Part shown: positions 52,072-58,886 of the stretch, piece by piece
Numbering within the stretch: position 1 is the stretch's first letter
How the letters are laid out: every line of letters begins with the position of its first letter
Assembly (NCBI RefSeq): GCF_010730355.1
Contig: NZ_AP022576.1
Coordinates: 2,604,001-2,668,000 of the forward strand
DNA: 64,000 nucleotides
Direction: 5' to 3'
From: Mycobacterium florentinum
GTDB taxonomy: Bacteria > Actinomycetota > Actinomycetes > Mycobacteriales > Mycobacteriaceae
The notes under the pieces: model-generated
The model's database searches: none
What the model was told of the DNA's origin: nothing
The model's input: the letters and a program-made list of their open reading frames with translations, nothing else
Made by a program: the position numbers and the translations under genes

Positions 52072-52440
52072 ATGATCGAAATACTGGATGACATGCCGGC
52101 GGGAGTTACCGGCATCCGGGTATCGGGCCGGTTGAACGCCGAAGATCTGCGCACCGTCAAGCCCGCCATGGAAGGGCTCGTGCAGGGCGGCGAGATCAGG
52201 ATCGTGGAGGTCATCGCGTCCGATTACCAGGGCTTCGGACCCGGCGGGTTGGTCGAGGATCTGAAGTTGGGTCTGGGCTCCGTATTCAAGCATCATTCGG
52301 CGTTCAAGCGAATCGCGGTCGTGTCCGACAAGGAATGGGTCCGCCATACCCTGCACGCGCTGGCATGGATGGTCCCCGGCGAGCTCGCCGTGTTCGGGCT
52401 CGACGAACTCGACCGCGCCACACGGTGGGCCGCCGGTTAG
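52072..52440 (+). CDS. SpoIIAA-like protein
   Basis: 122-residue protein of the SpoIIAA-like (STAS-type) family: MIEILDDMPAGVTGIRVSGR, WVRHTLHALAWMVPGELAVF. Function unknown; relatives are small stress-linked proteins. The ATG with AGGAG upstream is preferred to an earlier frame start. It is last in the mmsA operon direction and its stop overlaps the convergent MarR gene by four bases. Confidence 0.7.
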   Translation: MIEILDDMPAGVTGIRVSGRLNAEDLRTVKPAMEGLVQGGEIRIVEVIASDYQGFGPGGLVEDLKLGLGSVFKHHSAFKRIAVVSDKEWVRHTLHALAWMVPGELAVFGLDELDRATRWAAG

Positions 52441-52937
52441 AAGTCACCGGCGTTGCGGCGCAACGTTTCAATCGAGGACACCAGCGCCTGCGACTCGGCG
52501 GTTTCCATGCCGATATCGGCGAACACCTGCTCGTTGAGCGTGACGGTGGCGTCCTCCACCGTCGACCGGCCAAGCTCGGTGATCTGCACCAGTGTCGTGC
52601 GGCCATCGGTGGGGTGCGGGACCCGCTGAACCAGCCCGTCGGACTCCAGCCGGCGGATCGCGTGCGTGACGCTGGTGACGTGCACCTGTAGCCGGTCGGA
52701 CGCCTTGGTGATGGGCAACGCCCCGGTCCGGCTGAACGCGAGCAACCGCAGCAATTCGTAGCGTGAGAAGCTCAGGTCATAGGGCCGTAGCGCCGTCTCG
52801 ACACGGGCCAGCAGGATCTGATGCGCACGCATCACCGAGGTCACCGCGACCATGCCCTGCGAGACATCCCCCCAGCCCGCACGCTCCCAGTTGGTGCGTG
52901 CCGCGGCGATCGGGTCGCGCTTCTTATCGGGGGCCAC
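52437..52937 (-). CDS. MarR-family transcriptional regulator
   Basis: 166-residue winged-helix regulator: ALRPYDLSFSRYELLRLLAF (helix 2-3), ITKASDRLQVHVTSVTHAIR (recognition helix region), GLVQRVPHPTDGRTTLVQIT (wing). It corresponds in place to Rv0737. A palindrome lies immediately upstream of the start, so autoregulation is likely. It follows the aminotransferase gene of the four-gene operon, same strand, with a 58-base gap, and may control it or respond to its product. Confidence 0.85.
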   Translation of the reverse strand: MAPDKKRDPIAAARTNWERAGWGDVSQGMVAVTSVMRAHQILLARVETALRPYDLSFSRYELLRLLAFSRTGALPITKASDRLQVHVTSVTHAIRRLESDGLVQRVPHPTDGRTTLVQITELGRSTVEDATVTLNEQVFADIGMETAESQALVSSIETLRRNAGDF

Positions 52938-52995: not shown

Positions 52996-54033
52996 TTACT
53001 TGCCGACCGCGGACAACACCGCCAGGGTGGATGCGCGGCTGCCCACGGTGATCCGCGCGCCGCCGTCCGGGTAGCAGCGCACCCGAAGCCCGCTGTCGGC
53101 GAACACCTCACTCCACGGCCGGCCCTGCGCACTCTTCGACGGCAGGTACATGAAGTTCGCGTGCGCGTCGGTGGTGTATATCCCCAGCGCGGACAGGCGC
53201 ATCCGCAGATACCGCCGCTCGGAGGTGATCATCCGGATCCGTTGCAGCAGTTCGTCTTCAGCGTTGTAGGACGCCGTGACCGCGGGCAGGCTGGTCATCG
53301 CGATGCCGAACGGCAGCTGGTGTGACCACATCGTCGCCGCCAGCTCGGGTGCCGCCACCCCATAGCCGATCCGCAGCCCGGCCAGCCCGTAAGCCTTGGA
53401 AAACGTCCGCACCACCACGACATTGGGGAATCGCCGCGCCAGTGCCGAAACCTCGACCCGGTGTTCGGGTGCGGTGAATTCGATGTACGCCTCGTCGAGC
53501 AGGACGATGGTTTCGCTGCGCACGCGGCGCAGGAACCGGAACAGGTGCGACGTCGGCTCCAGCGTCCCGGTGGGGTTGTGCGGCCGGCACACCACGACGA
53601 CGCGCGCGTTCGCGGCCGCGTCGGCCAGCCGGTCGAGGTCATTATGACCACCCTTGTCCAGCGGCACCGTCACCAAGTTCAGCCGCGCCATCTGCGCGAT
53701 GATCGGGTAACCGTCGAAGGTGGGCGTCGACGTGACCATCGTGTCGCCCGCAATGGTCAGCGCCTGCAGGGTCTGCAGCACCACTCCCGTCGCGCCGGCG
53801 CCCAGCACCACCTGCTCCGAACCGACCCCGATGCGACCCGCTATCAGGTTGCGCAGCCGCTCGGGCAGGAATTCCGGATACCGGTTGGCCGCATCGATGG
53901 ACTTGATCAACACCGACCGGACCGCGGGCAGCGGCGGGAACGGATTCTCGTTGAGCGACAAGGCCAGTGGATCAATTGCATCCGGGACGGAGTCATCGAT
54001 CTCGGCGATGGCAGAACTTGCGACGGGTTGCAT
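52996..54033 (-). CDS. PLP-dependent aminotransferase (HisC-like)
   Basis: 345-residue fold-type I aminotransferase. Markers: LSLNENPFPPLPAV (N-terminal substrate loop), VVCRPHNPTGTLEP (Asn contacting PLP), LLDEAYIEF (Asp/Tyr), PLP Lys in RTFSKAYGLAG and the C-terminal Arg region GARITVGSR. It resembles histidinol-phosphate or aromatic aminotransferases. The ATG overlaps the KAS III-like gene stop by one base (TGATG). Last gene of the four-gene operon. It probably adds an amino group to a keto product or supplies an alpha-keto acid. Confidence 0.85.
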   Translation of the reverse strand: MQPVASSAIAEIDDSVPDAIDPLALSLNENPFPPLPAVRSVLIKSIDAANRYPEFLPERLRNLIAGRIGVGSEQVVLGAGATGVVLQTLQALTIAGDTMVTSTPTFDGYPIIAQMARLNLVTVPLDKGGHNDLDRLADAAANARVVVVCRPHNPTGTLEPTSHLFRFLRRVRSETIVLLDEAYIEFTAPEHRVEVSALARRFPNVVVVRTFSKAYGLAGLRIGYGVAAPELAATMWSHQLPFGIAMTSLPAVTASYNAEDELLQRIRMITSERRYLRMRLSALGIYTTDAHANFMYLPSKSAQGRPWSEVFADSGLRVRCYPDGGARITVGSRASTLAVLSAVGK

Positions 54034-55052
54034 CAGTCTCGCCCGCCCCAGCGCACCGCCGCCGCACCGGCGAAGTCGCCGGCGTGGGCGAAGCCCGCCA
54101 TCAGCACCACGTCGCCGGCCTTGAGCTGACCGTCGGAGATCGCACGATCCAGATTGACCGGGATCCCGGCACCGAACAGGTTGCCGCATTCCTCAAAGGT
54201 GTCCCGGTGACGTTCGGGCGGCAACTCCAGCGCGTCGCGCCAGTTGCGCAGAAACGCGCGGTTGGGCTGGTTGGTGACCATCAGATCGATATCCTTGGTG
54301 GACAATCCGATTCGGTCGCATACCGCGTACGCCACCTCGGGAACCTGCCGGTTGCCGCGGGCCAGCACCTTGGTGATCTTGCTTTCGGTGAAGCCGATGC
54401 TGCCCTCGCCGGGCCCCGCCTCCCACCACTTGCGCGGCGGATCGAAGGAGAGCGTCATCTCCCCGGCGTATTCACCGAAGGTGCGGCACTCGACATCCAG
54501 AATGGGCGACTTGTCGCTCACGGCGACCAATCCGACCGCGGCGCCGTCACCGGGCACCGCGGACTGTGCCTTGCGGCGAATCGTCGGCTGGTCGAAGAAT
54601 TGGCCGGCCGCGTTCTGCGCGATCGCGATCAGCGCGGTCTGGCCTTCGCCGGACGACAGCAGTTTGCGGGCCACGTTGAGCGCCAACACAAATGCCGCAC
54701 ATCCACCGTTGTTCAGGTCGAGCACCCACGACGGTCGCAGACCAAGCCGGTGCGCGATGCCGCCACCTTGCCCGTAGAACGCCATGTCGGGTACCTGAGT
54801 GTGGGTGATCAGCACGTCGACGCCTTCGACGACGTCGTGGCCGTGCCGCTCGATCAGTCCTTGCACCGCGCGCTCGATCATGTCGATGGAACTCTCGTCC
54901 CGCGCAACGTGATGGCGAAACTTCGGAGCCCGGAACATGACGTTCTCACGGAGCTCGTCGGACTCGGCGAACTGCGCGTAGTACTCGGCGGGGATCGGCT
55001 CGCCGGGAAGATAGGTGGAGACGTCGATCAGGCTGACGTTTGGTTTACCCAT
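54033..55052 (-). CDS. KAS III-like (thiolase-fold) enzyme with altered active site
   Basis: 339-residue ketoacyl-ACP-synthase-III-like protein: nucleophile Cys118 in LDLNNGGCAAFVLAL, and GNLFGAGIPVNL with Asn291. In KAS III the second active-site residue is His in a HQAN-type motif; here the motif reads N261-Q-P-N, so Asn replaces His. Decarboxylative condensation normally needs that His, so acyl transfer or condensation without decarboxylation is more likely. It could join an acyl group to a product of the neighbouring ThDP enzyme. Start ATG 55052; stop overlaps the aminotransferase start. Confidence 0.85.
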   Translation of the reverse strand: MGKPNVSLIDVSTYLPGEPIPAEYYAQFAESDELRENVMFRAPKFRHHVARDESSIDMIERAVQGLIERHGHDVVEGVDVLITHTQVPDMAFYGQGGGIAHRLGLRPSWVLDLNNGGCAAFVLALNVARKLLSSGEGQTALIAIAQNAAGQFFDQPTIRRKAQSAVPGDGAAVGLVAVSDKSPILDVECRTFGEYAGEMTLSFDPPRKWWEAGPGEGSIGFTESKITKVLARGNRQVPEVAYAVCDRIGLSTKDIDLMVTNQPNRAFLRNWRDALELPPERHRDTFEECGNLFGAGIPVNLDRAISDGQLKAGDVVLMAGFAHAGDFAGAAAVRWGGRD

Positions 55053-55058
55053 GGTTGC

Positions 55059-55706
55059 TCATCTCATCCATTCGGGGGTCACCGGTAGGCCATTGCGGTG
55101 GCGGTACTCGGCGATTGCCTTGAGGTTCTTCATTTCCAGCAGGTGGCCGGCGCCGAACATGTCCCAGAAGTCGCCGACCCACACCGGGCGCTGCGCCGGC
55201 GCGGTCTCCGGATACGGGTTGTGGTCGTAGAACGGGTGATGGCAATTCGTCCACAGCACAACCGAACCCGGCTTGTCGAGAACCACCTGCGCGTCGATGA
55301 CCCGCATCAGATAGATCATCCACAGGTGCTTGCCCTGATCCCACGCGCAGTGGTAGTCGACGGTGCGAGCCTGCTCGTTGGCGACGGTGCGCGTATAGAT
55401 CTCGGTCTCCGAGCCGAGCCTGTCGTAGGCCAGCCACAAGCCGGGCTCGTCGGTCGGGGTGAAACCGCGCAGACTGTATGTCCACTCTTCGAGGCTGCGG
55501 GTGTCGGACAGGTACTCGAAAAGCTCGTCCGGCGGGCAGTCGACGTAATCGTTGACGGTGCAGTAATCCCCGAACACCTGATCGTGCGGGTATACCGATC
55601 GCATCATGTCCATGATGATCGGAGTGGCCTGCTCCCTAGGACTGGTTTCGATGCGAGTGACCCCATCGATAAGGTCGGGAATATCTTCAAGCGCTGGCAG
55701 CGACAT
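55059..55706 (-). CDS. SRPBCC/polyketide-cyclase-like protein
   Basis: 215-residue protein with a START/SRPBCC-type sequence pattern (DYVDCPPDELFEYLSDTRSL, WTYSLRGFTPTDEPGLWLAY). Such proteins bind hydrophobic ligands and include cyclases and aromatases. Unusually polar and rich in Tyr/His/Trp (WTNCHHPFYDHNPYPETAP). Start ATG 55706, overlapping the end of the ThDP gene by 20 bases; seven bases before the KAS III-like gene. Its role is inferred from the operon. Confidence 0.65.
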   Translation of the reverse strand: MSLPALEDIPDLIDGVTRIETSPREQATPIIMDMMRSVYPHDQVFGDYCTVNDYVDCPPDELFEYLSDTRSLEEWTYSLRGFTPTDEPGLWLAYDRLGSETEIYTRTVANEQARTVDYHCAWDQGKHLWMIYLMRVIDAQVVLDKPGSVVLWTNCHHPFYDHNPYPETAPAQRPVWVGDFWDMFGAGHLLEMKNLKAIAEYRHRNGLPVTPEWMR

Positions 55707-57429
55707 TGGGGCATTTCTCCTTAACAGTCGGAATCTCGTCGATAGCAATGGTTTCGGTCTTCGCCGCGGTCAGGAATGGCGCGAAGGGCGGGATCTCGTC
55801 GGCGGCGCACTCCACGCTGACCACCGCCGGGCCGTCGATGCCGAGCGCGGTGCCCATCGCCGCGGCGAGTCCTGCTGCGTCGCTGACGTCGATCGACGTC
55901 AGGCCCGGAAACATGGCCGCCAGCCCGGCGCCGAGCTGGCTGGGCCGAAATCGGTTGTAGCTGTAGAGGTTGTCGTAGAACAGCTGCTCGCGAGTCACAC
56001 ACATCGCGTGCGCATTGTTGTTGAACAACACGAAGGTCACCGGCAACCGGTATTGCACCGCGGTGTGAACTTCCATGCCGTGCATGAAAAACGCTCCGTC
56101 ACCGGCGATCACCACGGTGCGCCCGGGCGGCCGTCCGCTATTGGCCCGCCCGAAAGCCATTCCGATGCCGGCCCCGAAGCTATAGCCCATGCCGCCCATG
56201 CCCAGTGCGACCGTGAATCTGCCGCCCCGCCGGGCCGGCAGGTAATGCACCGCCGACGCGCCGGTGTTGCCCGCGTCGACCACGATGTCGGCGCGGTCGG
56301 GCAGGACGCGGTCGAGCACGGCCATCGCGTCGCGGTAGCGTAGGCCCTCGCCAACCCATGACGGGGGCTTCAATTCGGAGCGAGACACCGCATCGGGCAC
56401 CCGCACGCCCGTCGGACGCCCGCTGCCGGACAGGGCATTAGTCAGCATCCGCAGCGAGCTACGCAGGTCGTCGGTGTGTACGTGCGTGCACGGAACATAA
56501 GGCCGCGCAGAGCCGATCGAGACGGTGCGCACCGCCGACAGGGCGTCGTCGAGCCCGGCGCGGGCCGTGACCGACAGTCGGGTACCGACCACAAGGCACA
56601 CGGCGCTGGCGGCCACCGCTTCGGCGACACCCGGGTGGCCCATCACGCCGGTTACCCCCAGCGCGGACGACGACCCGAATCCCGGTGTGCCGGAGGCATC
56701 TTTGGCGTCCGGCACGGTGGCCACCCGGGCCCGCAACAGTGCGCGCAGCTCCTCGAGCTCGGCACGGGCGTTGTCACGAGCCACCTGCTCGCCGGCGATG
56801 ATGGTGATCGGTCCGTCGACATTGCGCAGCACCGGAATGATCGGCTGCGGGTTTCCGATCGGCCGCGGGTCGTTAGCGATACCGCGGGATCGATCGGCGT
56901 AGACGAAGGCCTGCTGAATGTCCTTGGGCAGCAACAGCACTGCCGGTCCCCCGGTGCGCGCCGCGGCGATGGCCCGCGACATTGCCGCACCGATATCGGC
57001 CGGCCGCAGCACCCGCTCGCAGAACACCGACACCGTGGAGAAAACCGCTTCGGCGTTCAGCGATCCGTTGTTGCCGCTGGTGTCCTGAAAGCTGCCGCGG
57101 CCATCCATCGTCGTCGGTGCCTGGCCGACCAGCGCCAGCACCGGAACCCGGCTCGTCAGCGACTCCCCAAGGCCCGCTACAAGATTCAGCGCGCCGCCAC
57201 CCGACGTCGCGGCCACCACACCGAGCCCGCCGCCGCTGCGGCTGTATCCGTCGGCCATCGTTGCGGCGGAGAACTCGTGCTTGGCCAGGACGCCGGTGAT
57301 GTCGGACCGGAAATGTGCGGCGTCGTAAAGGTCTTCGATGTTGGCGCCGTCCACACCGAAGATGTGGTCGACGCCGACCGAGGCCAGACTTTCGACGATG
57401 TGGTCGACAACGCGGTGCTTCCGAGGCAT
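55687..57429 (-). CDS. Thiamine-diphosphate-dependent enzyme (acetolactate-synthase-like)
   Basis: 580-residue enzyme of the acetolactate synthase/decarboxylase superfamily. N-terminal domain: DHIFGVDGANIEDLYDA and catalytic Glu52 in AKHEFSAATMADGYSR. C-terminal domain: ThDP motif IAGDGAFFMHGMEVHTAVQ followed by LFNNNAHAM. Typically it decarboxylates or ligates 2-keto acids; the substrate here is unknown. First gene of the four-gene operon (ThDP enzyme, SRPBCC, KAS III-like, aminotransferase). ATG with AGGTGAG upstream, and a SigL-like promoter 36-63 bases before the start. Confidence 0.85.
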   Translation of the reverse strand: MPRKHRVVDHIVESLASVGVDHIFGVDGANIEDLYDAAHFRSDITGVLAKHEFSAATMADGYSRSGGGLGVVAATSGGGALNLVAGLGESLTSRVPVLALVGQAPTTMDGRGSFQDTSGNNGSLNAEAVFSTVSVFCERVLRPADIGAAMSRAIAAARTGGPAVLLLPKDIQQAFVYADRSRGIANDPRPIGNPQPIIPVLRNVDGPITIIAGEQVARDNARAELEELRALLRARVATVPDAKDASGTPGFGSSSALGVTGVMGHPGVAEAVAASAVCLVVGTRLSVTARAGLDDALSAVRTVSIGSARPYVPCTHVHTDDLRSSLRMLTNALSGSGRPTGVRVPDAVSRSELKPPSWVGEGLRYRDAMAVLDRVLPDRADIVVDAGNTGASAVHYLPARRGGRFTVALGMGGMGYSFGAGIGMAFGRANSGRPPGRTVVIAGDGAFFMHGMEVHTAVQYRLPVTFVLFNNNAHAMCVTREQLFYDNLYSYNRFRPSQLGAGLAAMFPGLTSIDVSDAAGLAAAMGTALGIDGPAVVSVECAADEIPPFAPFLTAAKTETIAIDEIPTVKEKCPNVAASA

Positions 57430-57464
57430 CTGCTCACCTAAAGTTCGATTGAGACGATGCCTAA

Positions 57465-57492
57465 GGCACGAGTCAGGTGAGCCGCCGGTTCA
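57465..57492 (-). promoter_or_regulatory. SigL-like promoter of the ThDP-enzyme operon
   Basis: On the minus strand TGAACC (57492-57487), 16 bases, then CGTGCC (57470-57465). This matches the SigL-type consensus as I recall it (TGAACC, 16-18 bases, CGTG) and the element before sigL in this window. The start codon lies 36 bases from the -10. Confidence 0.65.
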
Positions 57493-57498
57493 CCTGAC
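57472..57498 (-). terminator. Dyad overlapping the SigL-like promoter, downstream of rslA
   Basis: GTCAGGTGA (57472-57480) and TCACCTGAC (57490-57498) are perfectly complementary around a 9-base loop. It begins six bases beyond the rslA stop and covers the -35 and spacer of the operon promoter. It may end the sigL-rslA transcript, act as an operator, or both. There is no T-tract. Confidence 0.5.
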
Positions 57499-57503
57499 GG
57501 GTT

Positions 57504-58265
57504 CTACAGCGAGCGCTGCAACAAAACCTGCCCACTATCGGCGGCCACCACTTGCACGGCGGCGATCTGTTCGATCGGTGTCGAGATGCTCGCGGCGGGC
57601 GTCGCGGTGTGGCCGGGTTCGGCCACCCAGGTCGCCAACCGGGTCTGGCTGCCGTCACGACCGACCACAACCATCGCCAGCGTGTCATGGTGCGCGTACG
57701 GCGGAGCCAGGCAGACGCACTTCAAGTTGATGGCCGTCCCCCAGTGCTGGCTGGAAATCTGCACCGTCGACGTCAGCAGGTTGGTGCCCACTTGCGCCAT
57801 CTCCGACGACGCGGCCACCGACTGGACAGGCGCCGCCGGCGTGGTGTGACCCTGGACGCCGACGAACACGCCGACCGCCAGCACCGCGGCCGCAGCCGAC
57901 GAGGCCACCCAGGTGATCGCCCGGGTGCGGCGGCGGCGCCAGGCCACCTTCGCCAGCAACGACGGCAGCAGCTCGGGCGAGGGCTCCGGGGTAACCGGTG
58001 GGATGCCGCCGGACTGCGCGATCGCGGCGGCTTCTTCACTATCAAGCTGCGAAAGCAGGGCCGGCACGCCACTGAGCTCAGCGACGGCCTCCCGGCACGC
58101 CGCGCAGTGGACCATGTGCCCTTCGAATTCCCGGCGGTCGACCGACGACAGCGACCCCAGCACGTATGCGGCATCCCACATCGCGTAGCGGTGATTGTCA
58201 CCCATGATCAAACCAAAGACCTCGTTGTCGCCGGGCGGGCCTACACCTCGGATCGGCGTCTTCAT
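57504..58265 (-). CDS. rslA: Anti-sigma factor RslA
   Basis: 253-residue membrane anti-sigma factor of SigL. The cytoplasmic N-terminal domain has HMVHCAACREAV, the zinc anti-sigma HxxxCxxC; one membrane helix follows (AITWVASSAAAAVLAVGVFV, about residue 135); the extracytoplasmic domain (WGTAINLKCVCLAPPY) may sense redox through its CxC pair. ATG 58265 is chosen since AGGAG lies eight bases upstream; ATG 58274 overlaps that site. sigL lies 67 bases upstream on the same strand. Confidence 0.92.
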   Translation of the reverse strand: MKTPIRGVGPPGDNEVFGLIMGDNHRYAMWDAAYVLGSLSSVDRREFEGHMVHCAACREAVAELSGVPALLSQLDSEEAAAIAQSGGIPPVTPEPSPELLPSLLAKVAWRRRRTRAITWVASSAAAAVLAVGVFVGVQGHTTPAAPVQSVAASSEMAQVGTNLLTSTVQISSQHWGTAINLKCVCLAPPYAHHDTLAMVVVGRDGSQTRLATWVAEPGHTATPAASISTPIEQIAAVQVVAADSGQVLLQRSL

Positions 58266-58332
58266 TTCATCCATCTCCTGTCACCCTTCAAGCATTCGGA
58301 GCCGATGACCACACGGATTGGTGGTTGGGCTG

Positions 58333-58866
58333 TCATCGAGTAACTCCGAGTTCCTGCAGAGTGAGCCGCAAAGCCCGCACGGCATAGTGTAGTCGCGACT
58401 TCACGGTTCCTTCGGCAATGTCAAGGTCTCCAGCAATCTGCGCGGTGGTCCAGCCGCGGTAGTACGAACGTTCGATGACGGCGCGGTGTTCCGCGGACAG
58501 TTGCGTCATCGCATCGGCGATCAACAGCCGGTCCAGGGCGGCGTTGACCTCGTCGGGCGTGGCCTGCTCGGGCGCTCCGTCTTCGTCGAGCGAGCCGACC
58601 ACGTTGCGATACCGGGCGCTGCGCCGATCGTCGATGATCATGTTCCGGGCAACGGTGAACAACCAGGCACGCGCCGACCGCTCGGTGTCGCCGACGACCT
58701 CCGGATGTTGCCAGGCTCGCAGCAGCGTTTCCTGAACGACGTCCTCGGCATGGGCGGCGTCGCCGGTCAGCCGCAGCGCGTAACGCCACAGCACGGCAGC
58801 GTGCTCGTCGTAGAGCGCCTTCATCAACGCAGCTTCTGCCGCCGCGGTACCAGCGCCCCGGGCCAC
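58333..58866 (-). CDS. sigL: ECF sigma factor SigL
   Basis: 177-residue ECF sigma factor, near-identical in length and sequence pattern to SigL of M. tuberculosis: region 2 (YDEHAAVLWRYALRLTGDAA, AEDVVQETLLRAWQHPEV), region 4 (LSAEHRAVIERSYYRGWTTA, IAEGTVKSRLHYAVRALRL). GTG 58866 has AGGAGGTGAT upstream. Held inactive by RslA until a signal, likely redox. Known SigL targets in M. tuberculosis include itself and lipid/polyketide genes. Confidence 0.95.
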   Translation of the reverse strand: MARGAGTAAAEAALMKALYDEHAAVLWRYALRLTGDAAHAEDVVQETLLRAWQHPEVVGDTERSARAWLFTVARNMIIDDRRSARYRNVVGSLDEDGAPEQATPDEVNAALDRLLIADAMTQLSAEHRAVIERSYYRGWTTAQIAGDLDIAEGTVKSRLHYAVRALRLTLQELGVTR

Positions 58867-58886
58867 TCGATCACCTCCTGCCAATT

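Follow-up and report, generated by a model that had tools for sequence, protein, structure and literature searches.

A SigL-linked four-gene operon of Mycobacterium florentinum, common in mycobacteria and probably directing the synthesis of a carbazole-type metabolite

We analysed a stretch of 64,000 nucleotides from Mycobacterium florentinum (the window, hereafter), part of a single-contig genome of 6.22 Mb, and focused on four adjacent genes lying between the anti-sigma factor gene rslA and a gene encoding an Rv0737-like MarR regulator. All the genes described here are on the minus strand, positions are those of the window, and protein families were assigned with Pfam and NCBIfam. The block begins with sigL, encoding an extracytoplasmic function (ECF) sigma factor (58333..58884; PRK09645, E 4e-83; Sigma70_r2/r4), taken as the longest frame with a TTG start at 58884; its aligned part is 99-100% identical to the loci of M. 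genavense and M. triplex. The next gene, rslA (57504..58274), encodes a zinc-type anti-sigma factor, with a zf-HC2 match (E 6e-5), an NCBIfam antisigma match below the cut-off and an HxxxCxxC motif found by eye as HMVHCAAC. Then come the four genes of interest (the quartet). They encode a thiamine diphosphate (ThDP)-dependent carboligase resembling CqsB3/NzsH (55687..57429; 580 aa; TPP_enzyme N, M and C in Pfam), an SRPBCC protein resembling the carbazole synthases CqsB2/NzsI (55059..55706; 215 aa), an acyltransferase of the beta-ketoacyl-acyl carrier protein synthase III (KAS III) type resembling CqsB1/NzsJ (54033..55052; 339 aa; KAS III Pfam) and a pyridoxal phosphate (PLP) aminotransferase resembling HisC2/Pat (52996..54033; 345 aa; Aminotran_1_2, E 2e-45). 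The MarR gene (52437..52937; MarR Pfam, E 5e-9) closes the conserved block. The quartet fills the interval from rslA to the MarR gene, with 74 bases before the ThDP gene and 58 after the aminotransferase gene, and its joins are a 20-base overlap (ThDP/SRPBCC), a 6-base gap (SRPBCC/KAS III) and a 1-base overlap in TGATG (KAS III/aminotransferase). Open reading frames, junctions and families thus agree with the initial annotation of this DNA, made from the sequence alone, which had described four coupled genes forming a candidate biosynthetic operon. Among titled sequences, the SRPBCC gene comes nearest to those of M. genavense and M. triplex (96%), which would place the strain with the slow growers close to the M. 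simiae group.

The SRPBCC protein had no Pfam match at E 1e-3, and in NCBIfam it matched only weakly, with the scytonemin cyclase ScyC (E 4e-4). Its sole convincing match in the PDB was the carbazole synthase CqsB2 (6ipv/6ipw; phmmer E 8e-49, residues 30-205), with 46% identity over 175 residues. The catalytic residues proposed for CqsB2, as given in the review by Kobayashi and Kuzuyama (PMC7466098), are Glu105, Tyr144, Tyr172, His206 and Glu209. Four of the five are identical in the window protein, Y144, Y172, H206 and E209 corresponding to Y132, Y160, H188 and E191, and the fifth, E105, corresponds to Asp95. Across 94 SRPBCC sequences, Tyr132 was present in all, while Tyr160, His188 and Glu191 were each present in 93 (one row is truncated). 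Asp95 was likewise found in 93 of the 94, Glu occurring solely at locus L134, whose SRPBCC protein is 71% identical to CqsB2 and which we regard as a cluster of the canonical type. The protein of locus L133 shares 44% identity with CqsB2 and 71% with that of the window. In the two cofactor-dependent enzymes, the motifs are largely intact. Among 93 aligned sequences of the ThDP enzyme, whose best PDB match is BbmA (E 5e-50), the GDG motif was present in all 93 and Glu52 in 88, the other five rows having four gaps and one Asp; Lys213 of the aminotransferase was kept in 86 of 87 aligned rows, the last showing a gap.

The same four enzyme types, with the same proposed reaction logic, form the core of the carquinostatin (cqsB1, B2, B3, B7) and neocarazostatin (nzsH, I, J) clusters of Streptomyces. 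According to the pathway sections of PMC7466098, the aminotransferase CqsB7 yields indole-3-pyruvate, which the ThDP enzyme CqsB3/NzsH couples with pyruvate; the KAS III-like CqsB1/NzsJ then condenses this product with an acyl thioester, and ring closure by CqsB2/NzsI comes last, yielding a catechol whose oxidation produces an ortho-quinone. The quartet supplies one gene per step of this core pathway and nothing more. The initial annotation had been unable to match the operon with a described pathway and had placed amination at the end; the four enzymes in fact correspond to those that build the carbazole core in these two clusters, where transamination comes first and ring closure by the SRPBCC protein last, as the same sections of PMC7466098 describe. 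A HisC-like aminotransferase, a ThDP enzyme, a KAS III and an SRPBCC carbazole synthase are also listed for the chlCz cluster (carbazomycin/chlocarbazomycin, Streptomyces) in the cluster description of PMC10100901, a likeness by description and not by sequence; that cluster differs from the operon by an acyl carrier protein (ACP) and oxidases. We read the quartet as a carbazole operon because the SRPBCC protein has no convincing PDB match other than CqsB2, with four of the five catalytic residues kept and the fifth changed from Glu to Asp, and because aminotransferase, ThDP enzyme, KAS III and SRPBCC protein together form a core common to cqs, nzs and chlCz. By homology, the aminotransferase would convert tryptophan into indole-3-pyruvate as CqsB7 does, the KAS III-like enzyme would add an acyl chain with loss of CO2, and the SRPBCC protein would fold an unstable intermediate and close the aromatic ring.

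We then investigated the distribution of the quartet. The SRPBCC gene was found in 214 of the 296 genomes sampled in the genus (E 1e-20 or better). In the class Actinomycetes, 29 of 393 genomes, from 6 of 122 genera, contained a match (E 1e-10), one of them being a 45-residue piece. Among the holders known by name are Rhodococcus, Gordonia, Nocardia, Williamsia, Tsukamurella, Streptomyces and Burkholderia. Linkage was examined in the best 80 of 495 loci, which are the closest to the window, so the resulting figure leans towards linked loci. The sigL gene was present in the stretch in 67 of these 80; four (L021, L025, L052, L060) reached a contig end first, and nine were unlinked and held the quartet, or part of it in L082, where the ThDP enzyme had no match. 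The quartet is therefore conserved as a block beside sigL-rslA, as had been proposed. The MarR gene lies at most 400 bases after the aminotransferase gene in 64 of the 67 linked loci and 6.7 kb after it in one, and was not found in two. More than 3 kb separate rslA from the operon in 16 linked loci, with about 5.7 kb in L005 and L012. The interval in L005 (2559-8278) encodes a DUF4389 protein together with an FtsX/ABC transporter, oriented divergently from the ThDP gene. Counted by genome, sigL and the SRPBCC gene lay within 12 kb of each other in 36 of 47 genomes with both positions; these are the genomes, among 80 searched for sigL, for which the best matches listed included the SRPBCC position, and this figure, although fairer, also leans towards linked loci.

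Genomes of the genus lacking the SRPBCC gene (82 in total) were also considered, 20 of them for the order of genes at the site and 80 for KAS III and sigL. In 15 of the 20, sigL, rslA and the MarR gene are consecutive: between the end of the sigL match and the MarR match lie 725-877 bases, enough only for rslA; in the remaining 5, no sigL or rslA match was found within the 3.5 kb examined. The KAS III gene was found in none of the 80 SRPBCC-less genomes, compared with 17 of 20 SRPBCC-positive genomes taken as a control, which suggests that the quartet is gained and lost largely as a unit. At E 1e-60, sigL itself was detected in 74 of 80 SRPBCC-positive genomes and in 56 of 80 SRPBCC-less ones (58 at E 1e-45, minus two above 1e-60; Fisher p 4e-4, uncorrected for relatedness). 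M. tuberculosis has the same sigma/anti-sigma pair and the same redox logic in its SigL regulon (sigL-rslA, pks10, mpt53). The quartet is absent from its sigL-rslA site, where rv0737 follows sigL-rslA directly according to the locus description in PMC13002591. In the published table of PMC4319475, MAP4209 and MAP4210, two genes of M. avium paratuberculosis discussed below, are given without an M. tuberculosis orthologue. The initial annotation had spoken of an insertion between rslA and the MarR gene. A recent insertion or horizontal gain in the window species was rejected in view of the genus-wide block and the sigL-rslA-MarR order of quartet-less genomes, and the M. tuberculosis order more likely reflects a loss, because the arrangement with the quartet is common across the genus. 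Two observations concern single genomes: a close relative (G027, C1:2899852-2900496) has an SRPBCC match with one internal TAA stop, possibly a decaying copy, and two genomes without the SRPBCC gene (G078, C33; G092, C12) carry two sigL-like genes about 2.2 kb apart.

A SigL-type promoter, TGAACC-N16-CGTGCC, lies on the minus strand at 57465..57492, 63 bases before the ATG of the ThDP gene. It resembles the consensus TGAACC, N16-17, CGTgtc, which we take to be that of SigL. We searched the 130 bases before the ThDP gene for the pattern TGAACN-N16/17-CGT[AG] and found it in 61 of the 67 sigL-linked loci, always with a 16-base spacer, and in 28 of the 30 representatives whose ThDP identity is under 85%. 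The six linked loci missed by the pattern have TGAACC-N16-CGTT, a widening made post hoc and without a shuffled control. The reversed pattern was never found before the ThDP gene (0/67). As same-locus controls, the forward pattern was searched upstream of rslA, SRPBCC, KAS III and aminotransferase genes (0/67 each), the MarR gene (0/65) and map (0/66); the reversed pattern occurred once in these controls, before an aminotransferase gene. The element is present as well in all 16 linked loci where rslA and the operon are over 3 kb apart. It was also found at L137 and L140, in another genus of the family (g2), with a sigL-rslA pair about 2.7 kb away in L137, but not before the nine other non-mycobacterial loci (L133-L136, L138, L139, L141-L143), nor at the unlinked mycobacterial locus L145. 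Enough upstream DNA was available for 8 of 12 sigL-less loci, and two of these eight unlinked ThDP genes (L073, L078) have the motif. For 23 of the 61 matching loci, the distance from the start of the site to the ATG is 34 bases, which would give leaderless transcripts. In the window genome alone, TGAACC-N16/17-CGTG occurs 25 times versus 14 for the reversed control, which is near background; we therefore rejected the idea that the motif in one genome proves a regulon, and the promoter is convincing because it is conserved across species.

Published expression data bear on this control. In M. avium paratuberculosis, the genes MAP4201-4211 are named sigL, rslA, oxidoreductase, hypothetical protein, UbiE, LolC, LolD, "ilvB", "transcriptional regulator" (MAP4209), "fabH" and "pat" in the gene lists of PMC2806251. 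This order fits M. avium-complex loci such as L005, with a DUF4389 protein, an FtsX permease and an ABC ATPase preceding the quartet, and MAP4208-4211 are what we take to be the quartet. In the part of that report dealing with rhodanine D157070, these four genes were up 6.93-, 7.41-, 7.04- and 6.19-fold at day 1, sigL, rslA, mpt53 and pks genes rising along with them, and the authors suggest a sigma-L-related control; the like-named genes between rslA and the quartet rise with SigL too (PMC2806251). The RNA-seq tables of PMC4319475 give MAP4208-4211 as lower by 6.71-, 6.73-, 10.00- and 8.75-fold in a furA deletant with elevated ahpC and ahpD, a decrease that would agree with lower levels of oxidant and of free SigL in the cell. 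In the passages of PMC9469519 on the dual RNA-seq of M. avium paratuberculosis in THP-1 cells, other SigL targets are raised and the quartet genes were not found. SigL control of the operon is thus well supported, by conservation and by published co-expression, in agreement with the SigL-like promoter that the initial annotation had placed ahead of the operon; membership of the product in the SigL envelope and redox response, which it had raised as a possibility, is likely. RslA is described in the relevant sections of PMC2877774 as a zinc anti-sigma factor that loses its zinc and its affinity for SigL upon oxidation. Oxidative or envelope stress would then cause RslA to lose zinc, and the freed SigL would transcribe the operon from the TGAAC-N16-CGT promoter. 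Rv0737 and Ms_1492 are also reported to bind and activate the sigL-rslA promoter region, in the part of PMC13002591 that deals with these regulators.

Taken together, we consider it probable that this SigL-driven four-gene operon makes a carbazole-type metabolite, i.e. an indole-derived tricyclic compound, probably an ortho-quinone or a phenol. Sequence comparison supports the enzyme families, the cyclase residues, the conservation with sigL and the promoter, and published expression of the presumed orthologues supports co-induction with SigL targets; we infer the substrates, the product and the physiological role. The operon is likely an Asn-type carbazole-core cassette, common in mycobacteria and linked to SigL, and its carbazole chemistry is likely as well. 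"Asn-type" refers to the KAS III-like enzyme. Of the Cys-His-Asn triad of canonical KAS III, the window protein keeps Cys118 (94/94 aligned sequences) and Asn291 (93/94), and the His is replaced by Asn. Two sequences lack Asn261: that of L134 has His, and that of L025 deviates at the second Asn too. Compared with the carquinostatin and neocarazostatin clusters, the quartet thus shows the KAS III change from His to Asn and the cyclase change from E105 to Asp; the mycobacterial operon is without a dedicated ACP, FabH, prenyltransferase or isopentenyl diphosphate (IPP) isomerase, and it has a SigL promoter and is present in most of the genomes sampled in the genus. The mycobacterial quartet is therefore a sister type with its own marker, the Asn, rather than a slightly diverged copy of the known clusters. 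The accompanying KAS III tree comprised 43 of the 94 sequences (every third linked row), with long branches and with the Shimodaira-Hasegawa-like approximate likelihood ratio test (SH-aLRT) as its only support. The initial annotation had allowed for a match with a characterised cluster of known product: this holds in part, the core enzymes being characterised in Streptomyces, the mycobacterial KAS III active site being different and the mycobacterial product being a predicted one. Both types occur in one genome (G512), where the Asn-type cassette L133 and the canonical His-type cassette L134 lie about 142 kb apart on the same contig; the SRPBCC protein of L133 is 100% identical to a protein named Streptomyces piniterrae.

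Several observations weigh against a SigL-driven carbazole operon. On the enzymatic side, Asn261 replaces the FabH-type catalytic His in 92 of the 94 KAS III-like sequences. The window SRPBCC protein is only 46% identical to CqsB2, versus 71% for that of the canonical-type L134, and the KAS III and ThDP proteins share no more than 28% and 35% identity with their L134 counterparts, so the substrates may differ from those of the canonical type. The best PDB match of the aminotransferase, 4r2n (E 1e-50), is a putative phenylalanine aminotransferase and not a tryptophan enzyme. Canonical CqsB1 and CqsB2 take only beta-hydroxy acyl donors, unlike a plain alkyl chain, according to the substrate sections of PMC7466098, and within the operon there is no dedicated ACP, FabH or prenyltransferase, the search having been confined to the operon. 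Neither a compound made by these genes nor a mycobacterial carbazole pathway was found in the literature, which here means open-licence papers and does not establish absence from print. On the side of linkage and regulation, sigL and the SRPBCC gene are not within 12 kb of each other in 11 of the 47 genomes, 9 of which have them on different contigs. Three of the 20 SRPBCC-positive genomes (G067, G103, G148) have no KAS III gene at E 1e-60; their SRPBCC matches are weak (E 4e-40 to 6e-24), possibly remnants or a different relative. The strict motif precedes sigL itself in only 16 of the 67 linked loci, and many genomes have sigL but no quartet (56 of 80 SRPBCC-less ones), so the quartet is not the sole output of SigL. 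Lastly, MAP4208-4211 were equated with the quartet by gene order, annotation and the M. avium-complex loci, not by protein sequence.

Part of this evidence would also suit another building block, the ThDP enzyme taking phenylpyruvate or 4-hydroxyphenylpyruvate, or joining two other keto acids, and the KAS III-like enzyme and SRPBCC protein then producing a furanolide, another aromatic compound or a lactone in place of a carbazole. The relationship of the aminotransferase to a putative phenylalanine aminotransferase and the KAS III change from His to Asn both speak for it, as does cyanobacterin biosynthesis, in which the ThDP enzyme CybE and the furanolide synthase CybF carry out acyloin formation and then decarboxylative O-acylation (pathway sections of PMC13288894). 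The scytonemin and cyanobacterin systems (ScyA/ScyC, CybE/CybF) share with the quartet the presumed ThDP-dependent formation of acyloins from aromatic keto acids and, through ScyC, a weak likeness to the SRPBCC protein. However, their ring-forming enzymes and products are different, and the descriptions consulted name no SRPBCC-KAS III pair; for cyanobacterin in particular, the same sections of PMC13288894 name no SRPBCC cyclase. As the SRPBCC protein of the window also has the counterparts of CqsB2 Y144, Y172, H206 and E209, proposed for ring closure onto an indole, we regard this alternative as rather unlikely.

Even less probable, in our opinion, is a carbazole operon whose linkage to SigL is positional only, another sigma factor or a regulator such as the MarR protein being in control and TGAAC-N16-CGT being incidental. 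The near-background motif counts in the single genome (25 vs. 14) would agree with this, the decrease in the furA deletant reported in PMC4319475 shows other inputs, and the arrays, as presented in PMC2806251, were not obtained from a sigL mutant. Against it stand the fixed 16-base spacing across divergent genomes with almost nothing in the same-locus controls, the presence of the element in the 16 loci where the operon is more than 3 kb from rslA and in another genus, and the co-induction with known SigL targets in those arrays. The weakest alternative, a moonlighting or duplicated set of acetolactate synthase, FabH and HisC serving branched-chain, fatty acid and histidine synthesis under stress, draws on the names ilvB, fabH and pat in the lists of PMC2806251 and on pathway counts in PMC3416667, where MAP4208 (up in acid-nitrosative stress) falls under the synthesis of branched-chain amino acids and MAP4211 (lowered in THP-1 cells) under that of histidine, but we rejected it as scarcely credible, the scores being far below the curated cut-offs (ThDP enzyme at most 190 bits vs. 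at least 510 for the acetolactate synthase models listed; FabH, TIGR00747, 97 vs. 292; HisC, TIGR01141, 230 vs. 277), the KAS III catalytic His being lost, an SRPBCC cyclase being in the operon, and the lack of the KAS III gene in all 80 SRPBCC-less genomes making the set dispensable.

Within the carbazole reading, the acyl chain is probably fatty, and the product would act as a membrane antioxidant or redox carrier like the lipocarbazoles of Tsukamurella pseudospumae and the carbazoquinocins of Streptomyces violaceus, described as antioxidant 1-alkyl-2-methyl-carbazoles in the passages on these compounds in PMC7466098 and PMC11350554. As to acyl donors, 3-hydroxymyristoyl-CoA is accepted by CqsB1 together with CqsB2 and the carbazoquinocin enzymes are thought to use plain donors (same parts of PMC7466098), while a non-beta-hydroxy donor is proposed for chlCz in the corresponding part of PMC10100901. 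The SRPBCC protein of a Tsukamurella sp. is 80% identical to that of L143, itself 73% identical to that of the window; no lipocarbazole gene cluster was found in the literature searched. Some sister clusters also contain additional genes. A fatty acyl-AMP ligase gene lies beside the KAS III gene in L069, L082 and L145 (scores 416-444 vs. an NCBIfam cut-off of 600), MmpL is found in L069, L073 and L145, an O-methyltransferase and a P450 in L073 and L145, an ABC-2 exporter pair in L137 and L140, and an MFS transporter in L138. These ligase and transporter genes suggest a fatty chain and export. From these sister-cluster genes, the acyl donors of CqsB1/CqsB2, and the Tsukamurella lipocarbazoles and SRPBCC homologue, we predict an alkylated, redox-active carbazole; the fatty chain, production by this strain and an antioxidant or redox role would go with it. 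The unlinked mycobacterial cluster copies L069, L073, L082 and L145 resemble a fuller lipid-carbazole gene cluster.

More tentatively, many mycobacteria, but not M. tuberculosis, might make a lipidic, redox-active carbazole through an RslA-SigL operon, as an overlooked membrane antioxidant or electron carrier whose quinone may oxidise RslA in a feedback and whose Asn-type KAS III would perform a non-canonical acylation; we find this extended scenario possible but doubtful. The feedback of a quinone product on RslA, in particular, could occur and is speculative. To our knowledge, few outputs of SigL are known, and the operon, if correctly interpreted, would provide a concrete chemical product for this sigma factor. 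A large share of Mycobacterium would then have a carbazole pathway concealed by its annotation as acetolactate synthase, FabH and histidinol-phosphate aminotransferase, and the stress transcriptome of PMC3416667, which in the portion concerned counts two of the quartet genes as amino-acid synthesis, would be recast. It also raises the question of why M. tuberculosis keeps the switch without the operon: the tuberculosis lineage would have given up a redox defence and kept its regulator.

Finally, a perfect 9-bp inverted repeat (GTCAGGTGA / TCACCTGAC) is located on the minus strand at 57472..57498, just after the rslA stop, its 5' arm holding the start of the -35 element. The predicted RNA fold of this region reaches -23 kcal/mol over 56 nt (z -2.8). 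Of 33 sequences, window included, 9 have a fold at this position that is better than that of 95% of shuffles, and we therefore rejected the repeat over the -35 element as a general operator. At the corresponding site, certain relatives carry long hairpins that differ in sequence, and others have none; the repeat is possibly an rslA terminator, possibly varying by clade.

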